Source: Methylophilaceae bacterium LSUCC0401
GTDB lineage: Bacteria > Pseudomonadota > Gammaproteobacteria > Burkholderiales > Methylophilaceae
Direction: 5' to 3'
DNA: 64,000 bases
Assembly: GCA_024919035.1 (NCBI GenBank)
Contig: CP103442.1
Span: forward strand, 124,001 to 188,000
The position numbers were made by a program, and so were the translations under genes. The notes under the pieces are model-generated. The model ran no database searches. It was not told the DNA's origin and worked only from the letters and a program-made list of their open reading frames with translations. Below are positions 5,832 to 39,286 of the stretch, one piece after another (positions within the stretch are counted from its first letter, which is position 1; every line of letters starts with the position of its first letter).

Positions 5832-6326
5832 ATGGTAATTATTAGACTATCAAGAAGTGGTTCAAAACAAAAACCTTACTACAATGTAGTGGTGCAAGAT
5901 TCCAGAAAACGCAGAGATGGACGGTTTATTGAGCGCGTAGGTTTTTATAACCCTATGGCGCAATCTGGCTCTGAAACAATTCGTCTCAATGAAGAGCGTA
6001 TCGCGTATTGGAAAGGCCATGGAGCTCAAATTTCTGAGACTATGACACGAATTATAAAATTACAAGCTAAAGGTCCTGCTGGGCTTGAAGCAATGAAACA
6101 AAAAGATGCAAAAAAAGCTGAAGCTAAAAAGGCTAAAAAAGAAGCTGAAAAAGCAGCATCGGCTGAACCAGTAGCTGAAGAGGCTGCTGCTCCTGCTGAA
6201 GAGGCTGCTGCTCCTGCTGAAGAGGCTGCTGCTCCTGCTGAAGAGGCTGCTGCTCCTGCTGAAGAGGCTGCTGCTCCTGCTGAAGAGGCTGCTGCTCCTG
6301 CTGAAGAGGCTCCAAAAGAAGACTAA
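5832..6326 (+). CDS. rpsP: 30S ribosomal protein S16 with repeat-built C-terminal tail
   Basis: S16 assembles early into the 30S body. The canonical domain covers about residues 1-80 ([45 protein letters not shown]). The family is usually 80-90 aa; here the protein is 164 aa because a Lys/Ala-rich stretch and then an acidic Ala/Pro/Glu tail are added. The tail is six exact copies of EEAAAPA encoded by a perfect 21-bp tandem repeat (6177-6302). Operon order rpsP-rimM-trmD-rplS is the bacterial standard. The tail is unlikely to be needed for folding of S16; its role is unknown. Confidence 0.97.
6177..6311 (+). repeat. 21-bp tandem repeat inside rpsP
   Basis: Six exact copies of a 21-bp unit (GAAGAGGCTGCTGCTCCTGCT) run from 6177 to 6302, followed by a 9-bp partial copy. 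The unit is a multiple of three, so copy-number change keeps the reading frame. It is far more GC-rich than the surrounding DNA. Confidence 0.97.
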
Positions 6327-7603: not shown

Positions 7604-8149
7604 ATGAAAAATATTATTCAAACCATAGAAAATGAAGAAATCGCACGTTTAGGTAAAAAAATACCTAAATTTGCACCAGGCGATACAGTCGCAGTAGGTG
7701 TGAACGTGGTCGAGGGCGATCGAAAAAGAGTACAGATTTTTGAGGGCGTGGTTATTGCTAGAAAAAATCGTGGATTAAATTCCTCCTTCATTGTCAGAAA
7801 AATTTCATCGGGTGAGGGTGTAGAAAGAACCTTTCAGCTTCATTCCCCATTAATAGATACGATCGAAGTGAAGCGCCGTGGTAATGTGAGAAGAGCAAAG
7901 CTGTTCTATCTTCGTGAGCGTTCTGGAAAATCTGCGAGAATTAAAGAAAGACTTAAAATGCGTGACTCAGATTCACAATTCGAGGACATTCCAGTCGTTG
8001 AAGCAGCGCCAGCTGAACAAGCGCCAGCAGCAGAAGCAGCGCCAGCTGAACAAGCGCCAGCAGCAGAAGTTCCAGCAGCAGAAGTTCCAGCAGCAGAAGC
8101 TCCAGCAGCAGAAGCTCCAGCAGCAGAAGATAAAAAAGACGCTGAATAA
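7604..8149 (+). CDS. rplS: 50S ribosomal protein L19 with repeat-built C-terminal tail
   Basis: L19 lies at the 30S-50S interface. The normal domain is about residues 1-115 ([73 protein letters not shown]). The usual length is 115-125 aa; here it is 181 aa. The extra 60 residues are Ala/Pro/Glu/Gln-rich and encoded by tandem repeats at 8000-8125. Start ATG 7604 follows AAAGGAAA just inside the end of trmD. A strong terminator follows, closing the operon. Confidence 0.97.
8000..8125 (+). repeat. Nested tandem repeats inside rplS
   Basis: A 33-bp unit occurs twice without change (8000-8032, 8033-8065). It is followed by four copies of a 15-bp unit of the form GAAGNTCCAGCAGCA (8066-8125; two with GTT, two with GCT). 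All units are multiples of three and keep the frame. Confidence 0.95.
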
Positions 8150-33747: not shown

Positions 33748-35625
33748 ATGAAATTAAATAAAATCAAATTAGCTCTTGGTTTAGTAGCTGGTTTTGCTGT
33801 TGCAGCCCCTATGGTTGCTTCTGCTGCTGCTGATCAAGAAAAAGCTATTGCTGATGCGAACAATTGGGCTCACCCACGTGGTAACCACTCAAACAATGGT
33901 CACTCAGCTTTAACACAAATCAACAAAGGTAACGTTAAGAACCTTAAAGCTGCATGGACATTCGCGACTGGTGTAAACCGTGGTCACGAAGGCTCACCAT
34001 TAGTTATTGGTAGCACAATGTATGTTCACACAGCGTTCCCAAATAACGTTTACGCTTTAGACCTAAACAACGATCAAAAAATCGTATGGTCATATTTCCC
34101 AAAACAAGATCCAAGCGTTCAAGCAGTATTATGCTGTGACAACGTTAACCGTGGTCTAGGTTTTGGTGATGGTAAAATTATGCTTCAACAGAACGACGGT
34201 ATCATGGTTGCATTAGATGCTAAAACTGGTAAAGAAGTATGGACTGCTCAAATCACAGATCCAAAAGTTGGTGCTACTAACACTTCAGCTCCACACGTAA
34301 TCAAAGACAAAGTTCTTCAAGGTTGTTCAGGTGCTGAATTTGGTGTTCGTTGCTTCTTTACAGCTCTTAACCTTAAAGACGGTTCTGTAGCATGGAAAGC
34401 ATACTCAACAGGTCCAGATAAAGAAGTTCTTATCGGTAAAGACTTCAACAAAGACACACCTTTATACTCAGCTCTATCAGTTTACGAAGATGTAAACGGC
34501 GGTAACAAACAAGGTGGTTCTTTCAAAAAAGTTCCTACTGACAAACTACAAGGTGGTGTAGCTGACTTAGGTCTTAAAACATGGCTCAAACCACAAGCAG
34601 TTAAAGACGGTTGGCAACATGGTGGTGGCTCTGTATGGGGCTGGTGGCCATATGATGCAAAAACAAACTTAGTGTACTACGGTACAGGTAACCCATCAGT
34701 TTGGAACCCAGACGTACGTCCAGGTGACAACAAATGGTCTATGACAGTTTTTGCTCGTGACTTAGATACAGGTATGGCACGTTGGGGTATGCAAATGACA
34801 CCACACGACGAATGGGATTACGACGGTATTAACGAAGTTATCTTATTTGACAAAGGTGGAAAAACATACGCTTGGCACCATGACAGAAACGGTTTTGCTT
34901 ACACATGGCAAGCTGACAATGGTGTTTTAGTTGCTGCTGAAAAAGTTCACCCATTCGTGAACTGGGCAACTGATGTTGACATGAAATCTGGTGTTCCAAA
35001 TAAAGTTGCAGAACACGCAACTCACCAAGATTACAACACTAAAGGTACATGTCCTGCAGCTCTTGGTACTAAAGACCAACAGCCTGCTGCATACTCACCT
35101 AAAACTGGCTTAGTCTACACACCACTTAACCACGTATGTATGACATACGAACCAGTTGAGTCTAAGTATGTAGCTGGTCAGCCATGGGTTGGTGCGACAC
35201 TTACTATGTTTGCTGGTCCTGACGGTGTAATGGGTGGCTTCGGCGCTTATGATCCAATGACTAACAAAAAAGTATGGTACAACAAAGAGAAATTCTCATC
35301 ATGGGGCGGTGCTTTAACAACTGACTCAGATTTGGTTTTCTACGGTACTTTAGATCGTTGGTTAAAAGCTCTTGACGCGAAAAGCGGTAAAGAACTTTGG
35401 AAATTCCAAGTTGGTTCAGGCGTTATTGGTAATGCCTTCACATACGGCCACAAAGGTAAGCAATACGTAGGTGTGCTTTCTGGTATCGGTGGTTGGGCTG
35501 GTGTTGCTATGAACCTTGGTCTAACAAATGACACAGACGCACTTGGTGCTGCTGGTGGTTATAAAGAACTAACAAAATACAACGCTGCTCCTGGCGGCGG
35601 TGCATTAACAGTATTTAGCTTATAA
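33748..35625 (+). CDS. xoxF: Lanthanide-dependent methanol dehydrogenase XoxF
   Basis: Periplasmic PQQ enzyme that oxidises methanol (and often formaldehyde), passing electrons to cytochrome c. After a signal peptide (MKLNKIKLALGLVAGFAVAA, cut near AASAA) the eight-bladed propeller follows with W-docking motifs. The adjacent Cys129-Cys130 pair (VLCCDNVNRG) is the PQQ-linked disulfide. The motif PHDEWDYDGINE contains the catalytic Asp357 and the extra Asp359 that marks lanthanide-using XoxF; calcium MxaF has Ala there. Codon use is unlike its neighbours (many AAC, GGT, CCA, TTC), as expected for a very highly expressed gene. Followed by a strong terminator, then xoxJ and xoxG. Confidence 0.97.
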   Translation: MKLNKIKLALGLVAGFAVAAPMVASAAADQEKAIADANNWAHPRGNHSNNGHSALTQINKGNVKNLKAAWTFATGVNRGHEGSPLVIGSTMYVHTAFPNNVYALDLNNDQKIVWSYFPKQDPSVQAVLCCDNVNRGLGFGDGKIMLQQNDGIMVALDAKTGKEVWTAQITDPKVGATNTSAPHVIKDKVLQGCSGAEFGVRCFFTALNLKDGSVAWKAYSTGPDKEVLIGKDFNKDTPLYSALSVYEDVNGGNKQGGSFKKVPTDKLQGGVADLGLKTWLKPQAVKDGWQHGGGSVWGWWPYDAKTNLVYYGTGNPSVWNPDVRPGDNKWSMTVFARDLDTGMARWGMQMTPHDEWDYDGINEVILFDKGGKTYAWHHDRNGFAYTWQADNGVLVAAEKVHPFVNWATDVDMKSGVPNKVAEHATHQDYNTKGTCPAALGTKDQQPAAYSPKTGLVYTPLNHVCMTYEPVESKYVAGQPWVGATLTMFAGPDGVMGGFGAYDPMTNKKVWYNKEKFSSWGGALTTDSDLVFYGTLDRWLKALDAKSGKELWKFQVGSGVIGNAFTYGHKGKQYVGVLSGIGGWAGVAMNLGLTNDTDALGAAGGYKELTKYNAAPGGGALTVFSL

Positions 35626-35667: not shown

Positions 35668-35699
35668 AAACACCCTACTTCGGTAGGGTGTTTTTTTTT
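35668..35699 (+). terminator. Terminator after xoxF
   Basis: AAACACCCTAC and GTAGGGTGTTT form an 11-bp stem around a stable TTCG tetraloop, with nine Ts following. It should limit xoxJ expression relative to xoxF. Confidence 0.93.
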
Positions 35700-35744: not shown

Positions 35745-36629
35745 ATGGCTAAAAAAAGATTAATTACATTTTTGATTGCATTAATGTCGTTACCATTAGT
35801 GACTATGGAAACTGTTTATGCTGACGATATTTATAGTGATGGAAAGGTCGGAGAGGCTAGACGCGTTCCAAAAGATAATGAATTTAAGGTGTGCGCAGAT
35901 TCAAACAATCTTCCATATTCAAATGATAAAGGGGAAGGCTTTGAAAACAAAATTGCAGAATTGTTAGCCAAAGAAATGGGTAAAGAATTATCCTATCAAT
36001 TTTGGTTTGATCGCTTTGGTTTTCTGAAGAATACGTTGAATGCCTATCGATGTGATTATCTCATTGGAACGACTACAACTTATGATGCTGTCGATACCAC
36101 TAAGCCATATTATCGAGCCGGGTATGTCTGGGTATATCGAAAAGACAGGGGTTTGAATATTAAAGATTGGAAATCAGAAGATTTAAGAAAAAGTGTCATT
36201 GGTATTAAGGATAAAAGTCCTGTCACCGTCGCCCTGGATGATAATGATTTAATGGGTAATGCTAAACCCTACCGAATTCAACGAGACTTGACCGCATCTC
36301 CAGGCGAATTAATCGATGATGTTGTCTCAGGAGAAGTTGATATCGCCGTCGAATGGGGACCTCTAGCAGGCTATTATGCAAAACAATCGGGTGTAGAAAT
36401 GATGATTGTTCCAATTCCAGAATATGAACAAGTCAAACAAACAGGCAAAACATTATGGAACATCTCAGTTGGTGTGCGTAAAAGAGATGTGGAACGACGT
36501 GATGAAGTTGAGGCGGTTGTTATGAAAAATAGAGATAAAATTTTAAAGATTTTAGATGATTATGGCATCCCATATTTGGAGCCAGAATTTTCAAGTAATC
36601 TCGATGGATATAAGCGTCACAAGCAATAA
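35745..36629 (+). CDS. xoxJ: XoxJ, periplasmic solute-binding-like protein of methanol oxidation
   Basis: Member of the periplasmic substrate-binding protein 3 fold (MxaJ/XoxJ), thought to help mature or activate the methanol dehydrogenase. A signal peptide (about 1-26, ending VYADD) is followed by FKVCADSNNLPYSNDKGEGFENKIAELLAKEMGKE, the cysteine-containing YRCDYLIGTTTTYD, and VDIAVEWGPLAGYYAKQSG. The two cysteines match the expected disulfide. Length 294 aa is normal. It lies between xoxF and xoxG, each with its own terminator. Confidence 0.92.
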   Translation: MAKKRLITFLIALMSLPLVTMETVYADDIYSDGKVGEARRVPKDNEFKVCADSNNLPYSNDKGEGFENKIAELLAKEMGKELSYQFWFDRFGFLKNTLNAYRCDYLIGTTTTYDAVDTTKPYYRAGYVWVYRKDRGLNIKDWKSEDLRKSVIGIKDKSPVTVALDDNDLMGNAKPYRIQRDLTASPGELIDDVVSGEVDIAVEWGPLAGYYAKQSGVEMMIVPIPEYEQVKQTGKTLWNISVGVRKRDVERRDEVEAVVMKNRDKILKILDDYGIPYLEPEFSSNLDGYKRHKQ

Positions 36630-36650
36630 ATGTTGAAAAAAAAGTTTTAA

Positions 36651-36679
36651 AAAAGGGGTGATTTTTCACCCCTTTTTTT
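36651..36679 (+). terminator. Terminator after xoxJ
   Basis: AAAAGGGGTG, loop ATTTTT, CACCCCTTTT and further Ts, 22 bp after the xoxJ stop. Confidence 0.88.
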
Positions 36680-36832: not shown

Positions 36833-37324
36833 ATGTTTTCAAAAAAAGTAATTGTGTCATCACTATTAGCTGCATTAGTTGGTATTTCTAGTTTGACTTA
36901 TGCAAACATCAAACTGGTTAAAACCACTGATGGTAGTGAAATTAAATTTCCAGAAAAGGCTTTAGTAGGCACAGATGCTGAAAAAGAATTCCTAAAATCT
37001 GGTAAAAATATTTATGTTGGTGATGCTAAAGCCGAAGCAGATGGTAAAAAACGTTACAACATGTGGTCATGTACACAGTGTCATGGTCCAACAGCAAAAG
37101 GCCAAGTGGGTCCAGGTCTAACAGGTCCAAAATATAACTATGCTAAAGATGCGACAAACAAAGGTATGTTTGAAACTATCTGGGCAGGTACCAATGGCGG
37201 TATGGGTGCTAAGGGTTATGGCCTGATGGCAGCAGAAGACGGCGTAACAGTAGATGAATTATTAAAAATTATTGCTTTTGTTAGAAGCCATAATAAAGAC
37301 TTAAGCGGTAACGAAGGTCTGTAA
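36833..37324 (+). CDS. xoxG: c-type cytochrome XoxG (electron acceptor of XoxF)
   Basis: Periplasmic monohaem cytochrome c that takes electrons from methanol dehydrogenase. The start is ATG 36833, with AGGAG at 36823-36827; a longer GTG frame at 36803 has no ribosome site. The signal peptide ends near LTYA. The haem motif is Cys80-Thr-Gln-Cys83-His84, followed by GPTAKGQVGPGLTGP, and a likely Met ligand lies in GYGLMAAEDG or MGAKG. Its mature part is encoded by DNA identical to that of the next gene over 413 bp. A terminator follows. Confidence 0.92.
   Translation: MFSKKVIVSSLLAALVGISSLTYANIKLVKTTDGSEIKFPEKALVGTDAEKEFLKSGKNIYVGDAKAEADGKKRYNMWSCTQCHGPTAKGQVGPGLTGPKYNYAKDATNKGMFETIWAGTNGGMGAKGYGLMAAEDGVTVDELLKIIAFVRSHNKDLSGNEGL
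36903..37315 (+). repeat. Direct repeat copy 1 (mature xoxG)
   Basis: 413 bp identical, base for base as read, to 37537-37949. The offset is 634 bp. It covers everything after the signal peptide up to the last few codons; the leader and stop region are not repeated. Confidence 0.97.
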
Positions 37325-37356
37325 TTCAAAAGTATTTTGCATCATAGGTTATAATG

Positions 37357-37383
37357 ACGGCTGATTTATCAGCCGTTTTTATT
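37357..37383 (+). terminator. Terminator between the two cytochrome genes
   Basis: ACGGCTGA, loop TTTA, TCAGCCGT, then TTTTATTT. It separates xoxG from its twin, so the second copy may need its own promoter or depend on readthrough. Confidence 0.85.
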
Positions 37384-37400
37384 TGTAATCTGGGAGGATT

Positions 37401-37952
37401 ATGAAATATCTAGTTTTAATTTTTATATGTGTTATTCAGAGTTGCTCAAAAGATGATTCATCAATTCCTGTTGGCGCTGAGAATGATGTAGTAGCTCAGA
37501 CATCCACAGAAGAAAGTGTATCCACACAAACAGTCACAAACATCAAACTGGTTAAAACCACTGATGGTAGTGAAATTAAATTTCCAGAAAAGGCTTTAGT
37601 AGGCACAGATGCTGAAAAAGAATTCCTAAAATCTGGTAAAAATATTTATGTTGGTGATGCTAAAGCCGAAGCAGATGGTAAAAAACGTTACAACATGTGG
37701 TCATGTACACAGTGTCATGGTCCAACAGCAAAAGGCCAAGTGGGTCCAGGTCTAACAGGTCCAAAATATAACTATGCTAAAGATGCGACAAACAAAGGTA
37801 TGTTTGAAACTATCTGGGCAGGTACCAATGGCGGTATGGGTGCTAAGGGTTATGGCCTGATGGCAGCAGAAGACGGCGTAACAGTAGATGAATTATTAAA
37901 AATTATTGCTTTTGTTAGAAGCCATAATAAAGACTTAAGCGGTAACGAATAG
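37401..37952 (+). CDS. Second XoxG-type cytochrome c with lipoprotein-like leader
   Basis: The mature domain (residues about 47-183) is the same protein as XoxG, with one CTQCH haem site, and ends two codons earlier. The N-terminus is wholly different: a short hydrophobic signal followed by VIQSCSKDD, where Cys15 fits a lipobox (Ile at -3, Ser at -1, though Gln at -2 is unusual). A 30-residue Ser/Thr/Glu/Val linker then leads to the haem domain. This suggests a lipid-anchored form of the same electron carrier. A GGGAGG ribosome site precedes it. ndh starts 8 bp after the stop. Confidence 0.9.
   Translation: MKYLVLIFICVIQSCSKDDSSIPVGAENDVVAQTSTEESVSTQTVTNIKLVKTTDGSEIKFPEKALVGTDAEKEFLKSGKNIYVGDAKAEADGKKRYNMWSCTQCHGPTAKGQVGPGLTGPKYNYAKDATNKGMFETIWAGTNGGMGAKGYGLMAAEDGVTVDELLKIIAFVRSHNKDLSGNE
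37537..37949 (+). repeat. Direct repeat copy 2 (mature cytochrome)
   Basis: 413 bp identical to 36903-37315, including all synonymous sites. Identity starts exactly at the end of the leader/linker and stops two bases before the tag stop codon. Confidence 0.97.
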
Positions 37953-37960
37953 GGGACTGA

Positions 37961-39286
37961 ATGGAACAACAGCTTCATCGAGTTGTAATTGTTGGTGGTG
38001 GTGCGGGCGGCTTAGAGCTTGCGACTAAACTGGGTAATAGTTTAGGCAAAAAAAATCTCGCAGAAATTTTTTTAGTCGACGCCAAAAAGACCCATGTTTG
38101 GAAACCTTTATTACATGAAATTGCTGCAGGAAGTTTAAACCCAGATAAGGATGAGCTTGAGTATTTAGCGCAAGCGCATTGGCATCACTTCAAATTTCGC
38201 TATGGTCGTGTAGAGGATGTTGACGCTAAAAATCAAACCATCACCATTGCCCCGACATCAGATATTGACGGGATCGAGATTATCCCACAAAGAAAAATTA
38301 AATATGACACATTAGTCTTATCCGTGGGAAGCACTGTCAATGATTTTAATATTCCCGGAGCAAAAGAGCATGCTGTTGCGCTGGATACACAATACCAGGC
38401 CGAGCGATTCCATCAAAAATTACACAATTCAATTTTAAGAGCGCAGACCCAAGCCGGTTCGGTGAGACCAGGACAATTGGAAGTGGTGATAGTCGGAGGT
38501 GGCGCCACAGGAGTTGAGTTAGCGGCGGAATTGCATAAAGCGACCAGAGAAATGGCGGCCTATGGATTAGACCGTATTAATCCAGATCGGGATATCAGTA
38601 TTCATTTAGTTGAAGCAAGCCCAAGACTACTCCCAGCGCTTCCCGCAAAAATTAGTACTTCAGTTGAGATGGAGTTACGTAAATTAAACGTAAAATTATT
38701 TTTGGGTGAAAAAGTAACCCGAGTCACAGAGTTTGGTGTTGAAACCCATTCAGGGAAAAAAATTATTTCATCGTTAGTGGTGTGGGCTGCAGGAATAAAA
38801 GCCCCTGAATTTTTATCAAAAATTAAGGGCATTGAAACAAATGCAATTCATCAGGTAAAAGTACTTTCTACCCTGCAAACTTTAACGGACAAAAATATTT
38901 TTGCTTTTGGGGATTGCGCTGCGTGTCCGATTAAGCCTGGAGCTGAAGAGTTAGTCCCTCCTCGCGCTCAGGCCGCTCATCAGCAAGCATCTCTGCTCTA
39001 TAAAACCCTTAAAAATCGTGTGTTAAGACCCAACAAACCCCTTCCTCATTATGTGTATAAGGATTATGGTTCATTGGTCAACTTGGGTCGATATTCAACT
39101 GTAGGGAATCTTATGGGGTCCTTACTGGGTGGAAGTATGTTTGTTGAGGGATTGATTGCTCGATTAATGTACCTGATGTTGTATCAAATGCACCTCTCTG
39201 CCTTACATGGAGTTATTAGTGTGGTATTCCGCTTAATTGGTAAAATTATTTCACGAAGAACCGAGGCTAGGGTCAAGCTGCATTAG
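37961..39286 (+). CDS. ndh: Type II NADH dehydrogenase (NDH-2)
   Basis: Single-subunit, non-proton-pumping flavoenzyme that oxidises NADH and reduces quinone at the inner membrane. The FAD site is VVIVGGGAGGLELATKLG at the N-terminus; the NADH site is VVIVGGGATGVELAAELH near residue 175. Other motifs are LVLSVGSTVNDF, VVWAAGIKAPEFL, NIFAFGDCAAC and PRAQAAHQQA. The C-terminal 60 residues (LMGSLLGGSMFVEGLIARLMYLMLY) are amphipathic and bind the membrane. Length 441 aa is normal. It directly follows the second cytochrome gene. Confidence 0.92.
   Translation: MEQQLHRVVIVGGGAGGLELATKLGNSLGKKNLAEIFLVDAKKTHVWKPLLHEIAAGSLNPDKDELEYLAQAHWHHFKFRYGRVEDVDAKNQTITIAPTSDIDGIEIIPQRKIKYDTLVLSVGSTVNDFNIPGAKEHAVALDTQYQAERFHQKLHNSILRAQTQAGSVRPGQLEVVIVGGGATGVELAAELHKATREMAAYGLDRINPDRDISIHLVEASPRLLPALPAKISTSVEMELRKLNVKLFLGEKVTRVTEFGVETHSGKKIISSLVVWAAGIKAPEFLSKIKGIETNAIHQVKVLSTLQTLTDKNIFAFGDCAACPIKPGAEELVPPRAQAAHQQASLLYKTLKNRVLRPNKPLPHYVYKDYGSLVNLGRYSTVGNLMGSLLGGSMFVEGLIARLMYLMLYQMHLSALHGVISVVFRLIGKIISRRTEARVKLH

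Follow-up and report, generated by a model that had tools for sequence, protein, structure and literature searches.

XoxG, a cytochrome cL, is the soluble electron acceptor of the methanol dehydrogenase XoxF, and concerted evolution of paralogues by gene conversion is well known, for example among the outer-membrane protein genes of Helicobacter pylori. Transcriptome work in the Methylophilaceae described the genes xoxF, xoxJ, xoxG and that of an oxidoreductase as tightly clustered and conserved across the family (PMC3728764). In coastal bacterioplankton, methanol oxidation through XoxF in OM43 bacteria ranks with the most strongly expressed functions, and the OM43 transcriptome paper mentions a single xoxG (PMC5120137); how electrons leave XoxF in OM43 cells has been little studied. 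In Rhodobacter, a soluble carrier (c2) and a membrane-anchored one (cy) serve one electron path (PMC7876108).

Here we analyse a stretch of 64 kb (the window) from a marine bacterium that lives on methanol; it carries two neighbouring cytochrome genes, slot 1 and slot 2, with the same haem domain behind different leaders. We consider it highly probable that they represent an old cL-type pair, one soluble and one a lipoprotein, that gene conversion homogenises in the OM43-type clade and in which the slot-1 domain has been replaced elsewhere.

An identical haem domain in two genes of the xox cluster

The window genes lie in the order xoxF, xoxJ, slot 1, slot 2 and NDH-2-like flavoprotein (Table 1). 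An exact repeat comparison within the window bore out the sequence-only reading that the two cytochrome genes share an identical tract between different leaders and tails: 413 bp match base for base at an offset of 634 bp. The match has no 5' extension, breaks immediately past 37315 and 37949 and has dissimilar flanks; it starts 2 bases 5' of the first mature codon and stops at the last common codon (GNE). It is the sole non-tandem exact repeat of at least 30 bp in the window, which excludes chance. Exact tandem repeats occur at 6174-6308 (period 21 bp) and 8000-8062 (period 33 bp).

Table 1 Features of the xox locus, in window coordinates.
Feature	Position	Strand	Evidence
xoxF, PQQ methanol dehydrogenase	33748..35625	+	TIGR03075 597.9 bits, above cut-off
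xoxJ, MxaJ/XoxJ-type periplasmic binding protein	35745..36629	+	TIGR03871 261 bits, cut-off 212.15
Slot 1, soluble cytochrome (XoxG position)	36833..37324	+	ORF; Cytochrom_C PF00034 33.8 bits
Cleavable signal peptide of slot 1, 24 aa	36833..36904	+	Sequence; homologous leader in relatives
Identical tract, copy 1	36903..37315	+	Mature haem domain 36905-37315; CTQCH 37070-37084
TATAAT (37350-37355), then intrinsic-terminator hairpin (37356-37377), between slots 1 and 2	37350..37377	+	Terminator scan
Slot 2, predicted lipoprotein cytochrome	37401..37952	+	ORF; lipobox VIQSC; lipobox in 68/71 orthologues
Lipoprotein signal peptide and predicted lipid-bearing Cys15	37401..37445	+	Cys15 codon 37443-37445; lspA, lolA in genome
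Ser/Thr/Asp/Glu-rich linker of slot 2, 31 residues	37446..37538	+	
Identical tract, copy 2	37537..37949	+	Mature haem domain 37539-37949; CTQCH 37704-37718
NDH-2-like FAD oxidoreductase	37961..39286	+	Pyr_redox_2 166.8 bits; same position in relatives

The slot-1 product (163 aa) consists of a 24-aa signal peptide, MFSKKVIVSSLLAALVGISSLTYA, followed by NIKLV and the rest of the domain; the slot-2 product (183 aa) has a lipobox (VIQS^C) and a 31-residue linker, then the same 137-aa domain. Both copies contain CTQCH and score above the Pfam Cytochrom_C cut-off, identifying them as class I c-type cytochromes, and the C-x-x-C-H motif is invariant across the alignment. An AlphaFold model of slot 1, made with a 16-row alignment, was poor (pLDDT 38) and gave no confirmation of the fold. 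The genome is one contig of 1.307 Mb (completeness 99.98%), and a search of it for a further copy of the cytochrome returned none besides slots 1 and 2.

With the curated model for cytochrome cL (TIGR03872), the two copies scored 86.0 and 85.5 bits, below the cut-off of 147.8, and the divergent type-A cytochrome-cL domains of relatives (see below) scored in the same range. The best PDB match was 2d0w (E = 4e-18), a distant cytochrome cL homology. The assignment to XoxG therefore rests on position and distant homology, both of which agree with the earlier proposal of a XoxG/cytochrome-cL-type protein in a XoxF cluster. XoxF itself is 79-100% identical in amino acids at the syntenic position in relatives, and the order xoxF-xoxJ-slot 1-slot 2-ndh recurs in Methylophilaceae loci wherever the contig is long enough, except in L087, L090 and L102, which hold a related cytochrome in a different setting.

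Lipoprotein leader and transcription

The slot-2 leader has a charged n-region and a hydrophobic stretch followed by the lipobox, MKYLVLIFICVIQS^C. The lipobox pattern is present in the window gene and in 68 of 71 slot-2 orthologues, in line with the initial identification of this leader as that of a lipoprotein, and the genome encodes LspA and LolA, both above cut-offs. In 66 of the 68, the residue after the lipid-bearing Cys is G, S or N. Such residues point to the outer membrane under the E. coli +2 rule, and the slot-2 protein would be sorted there if that rule, of uncertain validity in these bacteria, applies. That one haem domain would be made both free and lipid-tethered is well supported by sequence.

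Terminator-like hairpins lie 3' of xoxF (35668-35693) and xoxJ (36649-36678, scored on the minus strand) as well as 3' of slot 1, and the 'xox operon' may comprise several transcripts. The slot-1 hairpin occurs at the same place in nearly all relatives inspected. Because this terminator separates the two slots and the flavoprotein start codon lies just 8 nt past the slot-2 stop, slot 2 is probably co-transcribed with the flavoprotein gene and not with slot 1. A TATAAT stands immediately 5' of the slot-1 hairpin in the window clade and within its loop in many relatives; hairpin and TATAAT were also noted in L016, L017, L022, L025, L030, L032, L039, L040, L042, L043, L055 and L103. It is possible that this TATAAT is a promoter -10 box that overlaps the intrinsic terminator. 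A single haem-copper oxidase is encoded in the genome and is likely the final electron acceptor.

Age and concerted evolution of the pair

Both slots, with orthologous leaders and linkers, are present in seven other OM43-type genomes of the same genus (KB13 (L037), LSUCC0717 (L035), LSUCC0665 (L036), G003 (L008) and the metagenome-assembled genomes (MAGs) L033, L034 and L038), so the duplication predates these species. The domains of relatives that share the pair, leaders and gene order differ from those of the window by about 17-22% in DNA. The pair is therefore old.

Within each of the eight OM43-type genomes, the two domains are 94.1-100% identical. They differ at 0-24 of about 410 bases within a genome and at 16-85 between genomes; over the last 405 bp, the eight within-genome counts are 0, 0, 3, 0, 0, 23, 0 and 5, whereas same-slot counts between genomes have minima of 16-21, with a median of about 74. 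The within- against between-genome comparison suggested at the outset therefore shows copies that are closer within genomes. The two window copies have a synonymous divergence (dS) of 0 from each other, compared with 0.53 from the nearest relative (L033) and 1.25 from KB13. In the DNA tree, copies join by genome and not by slot, most pairs being strongly supported, and topologies in which either slot is monophyletic were rejected (p-AU 4.8e-06 and 2.7e-05). All five differences between the G003 copies fall in one short cluster near the 3' end, and the KB13 copies are 91.2% alike in their first half and 97.1% in their second, patterns that we read as partial conversion tracts. Ongoing gene conversion is the best explanation for the homogeneity of the pair, making the locus a clear case of concerted evolution. 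Homogenisation is not universal: the Methylophilus copies have about 80% identity and group by slot. Diverged, phylogenetically separate copies, which had been named as grounds for abandoning the idea, are thus found in distant genera and not in the window's clade; those of Methylophilus date the pair and do not refute it.

Loss of slot 2 and history of the domains

Slot 2 is absent in Methylopumilus, HTCC2181 and many OM43-type genomes and is therefore dispensable there. Every Methylopumilus genome that matched has one match only, as do about half of the genus-mates (some of these assemblies are incomplete). Single copies bear the slot-1 type of leader, and the slot-1 form looks like the essential one. 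In all six single-copy loci inspected, the terminator of slot 1 is still in place and the flavoprotein gene starts after a longer gap, of about 100 nt, indicating that slot 2 alone was removed. This contradicts, for these relatives, the 634-bp deletion by crossover between copies that had been foreseen, and such a crossover is not supported as the origin of single-copy genomes. In HTCC2181 (L025/L070; L070:5932-6447), L031 and L020, the single-copy slot-1 leader has acquired a Cys that creates a lipobox-like LLAAC, LLASC or LLAC, followed by a normal cleavage site (ANA^G, AQA^E), and their cytochrome might be lipid-anchored.

Across the family, mature domains fall into two deep types. Type A (CNLVS...) occupies slot 1 in many genera and in a single case, L071, follows a lipoprotein leader; type B, whose domains end in GNE, occupies nearly every slot 2, and also slot 1 in the window's clade, Methylopumilus, Methylophilus, much of Methylotenera and a few others. 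Slot-1 type-B signal peptides are in many cases clearly homologous to type-A slot-1 leaders; the leaders of L046 and L047, for example, are 80% identical in DNA and precede domains of different type. Outside the core clade, monophyly of the slot-1 type-B domains was rejected (p-AU 1e-56). Together, these observations indicate either that the lipoprotein's domain overwrote that of slot 1 on more than one occasion or that repeated conversion has followed; with a domain alignment of about 139 columns, many forks are not settled and the number of overwriting events is not fixed. An automatic lipobox rule flagged some slot-1 type-A proteins (QASA^AC), which we classed as soluble by judgement because the residue preceding that Cys is E or D in close relatives.

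Other arrangements occur locally. At L071:1555-3409, three cytochromes stand in a row, the middle one having a lipoprotein leader on a domain of type A (XoxG-like), which inverts the usual combination. At L067:4476-6513, two soluble type-A cytochromes precede the lipoprotein gene, representing another local duplication. Apparent damage to xoxJ in KB13 proved to be a 750-base run of N in the collection's copy and was discarded as a feature.

Relative to L033, the window shows 1-6% difference in xoxJ, the spacers and the slot-1 leader, 8% in ndh and 11% across the slot-2 leader and linker. The domain (36905-37315) differs by 6.3% in its first half and by 16.1% in its second, the latter as much as between distant species, and the two copies within each genome carry the same 46 differences. 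This half-to-half contrast is absent when the window is compared with the other genomes. On the simplest reading, one lineage probably took in a foreign second half, which conversion then spread to the other copy.

Discussion

Our results argue for an old pair of carriers kept alike by conversion, and two other origins of the identity can largely be set aside. Short-read assembly can be misled by repeats of this length, and some of the relatives are MAGs, but an assembly error is very unlikely to be the source of the pair, and we dropped it: the genome is a single contig of 99.98% completeness, the two leaders and two tails are distinct, independent isolate genomes also have both genes, and the KB13 copies differ at 24 sites and so are not one copy counted twice. 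At most, such errors would blur a few between-copy differences. A very recent tandem duplication in this strain, with leaders gained by fusion, would account for 413 bp at 100% identity, yet we find it scarcely credible and rejected it. The orthologous slot-2 leader and linker are present in KB13, LSUCC0717, LSUCC0665, G003, L033 and L038, whose domains differ from those of the window, and recognisable lipobox leaders in the same gene order extend across the family. Of the two origins initially offered, very recent duplication or gene conversion, only conversion stands, because relatives with domains about 17-22% from those of the window share pair, leaders and order, and their copies agree genome by genome.

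A separate question is whether the identity itself is selected. The abrupt start of identity at the mature domain had been taken as a sign of selection for two locations; the leaders are unrelated, conversion cannot extend further, and the sharp boundary where homology simply ends needs no selection. It is nearly an even question whether conversion is real and neutral, the 634-bp spacing giving frequent ectopic exchange and identity without benefit. Close direct repeats convert without selection, the tracts end where homology ends and include partial ones, and many lineages have lost slot 2. Against neutrality, pair and lipobox are kept over large sequence distances, the soluble domain has been replaced repeatedly, and between-copy dN in KB13 (0.019) is far below dS (0.236), which places each copy under constraint; neutral identity itself can accommodate all of these points. 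Somewhat tentatively, we suggest that an interchangeable haem domain sits behind two fixed leaders in the Methylophilaceae and that selection for matched carriers in two places of the cell may drive its repeated replacement and continual homogenisation, including the spread of an imported allele to both copies. We think it unlikely that the lipoprotein copy serves a partner other than XoxF, such as the adjacent NDH-like flavoprotein operon or an outer-membrane task. The terminator between the slots, the 8 nt between slot 2 and ndh and the residues after the lipid-bearing Cys, read by the E. coli rule, would fit such a role, but the slot-2 haem domain is the same as that in the XoxG position, and ndh is kept where slot 2 is lost, indicating that the flavoprotein does not need slot 2.

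If the homogenised pair serves XoxF, periplasmic XoxF would reduce the slot-1 protein, which would diffuse to its acceptor, and the slot-2 protein would be lipidated and held within about 30 linker residues of a membrane. Conversion between domain sequences of about 410 bp, 634 bp apart, would keep the same current haem domain at both locations. The soluble form could then handle bulk transfer and the tethered twin could speed short-range delivery or hold a carrier reserve, much as cy works next to c2. In this explanation we infer that slot 2 is lipidated, that XoxF passes on its electrons to the carriers and that the cell makes use of two locations; the two-location idea is plausible.

The locus offers a clean bacterial case of concerted evolution limited to one domain of two differently targeted proteins, and a natural experiment on why one electron carrier should be present at two cell locations. 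As the lipoprotein twin is identical, diverged or lost depending on the lineage, it also provides a comparative series for judging the importance of tethering. Both the lipoprotein twin and the overwriting domain by domain appear to be new, the kind of process being already known: we found no description of either, or of a lipoprotein XoxG, in the literature searched, most subscription papers being outside its reach.

Several known systems resemble parts of this arrangement. Like XoxG and MxaG (cytochrome cL), the window genes adjoin xoxF and xoxJ and encode a single CXXCH, and the closest solved relatives of their domain are the cytochromes cL 2d0w and 2c8s; they differ in scoring below the curated MoxG cut-off and in having a second copy with a lipoprotein leader and the same mature domain. 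Rhodobacter c2 and cy, and fatty-acid-anchored cytochromes c, likewise place soluble and anchored carriers side by side, although cy is anchored by an uncleaved signal sequence and slot 2 by a predicted lipid; to our knowledge, there is no case of c2 and cy sharing an identical haem domain maintained by gene conversion. The outer-membrane protein genes of H. pylori show the same excess of within-genome over between-species identity and the same partial tracts, but in the window the two targeting leaders remain distinct and homogenisation affects only the mature domain of the electron carrier.
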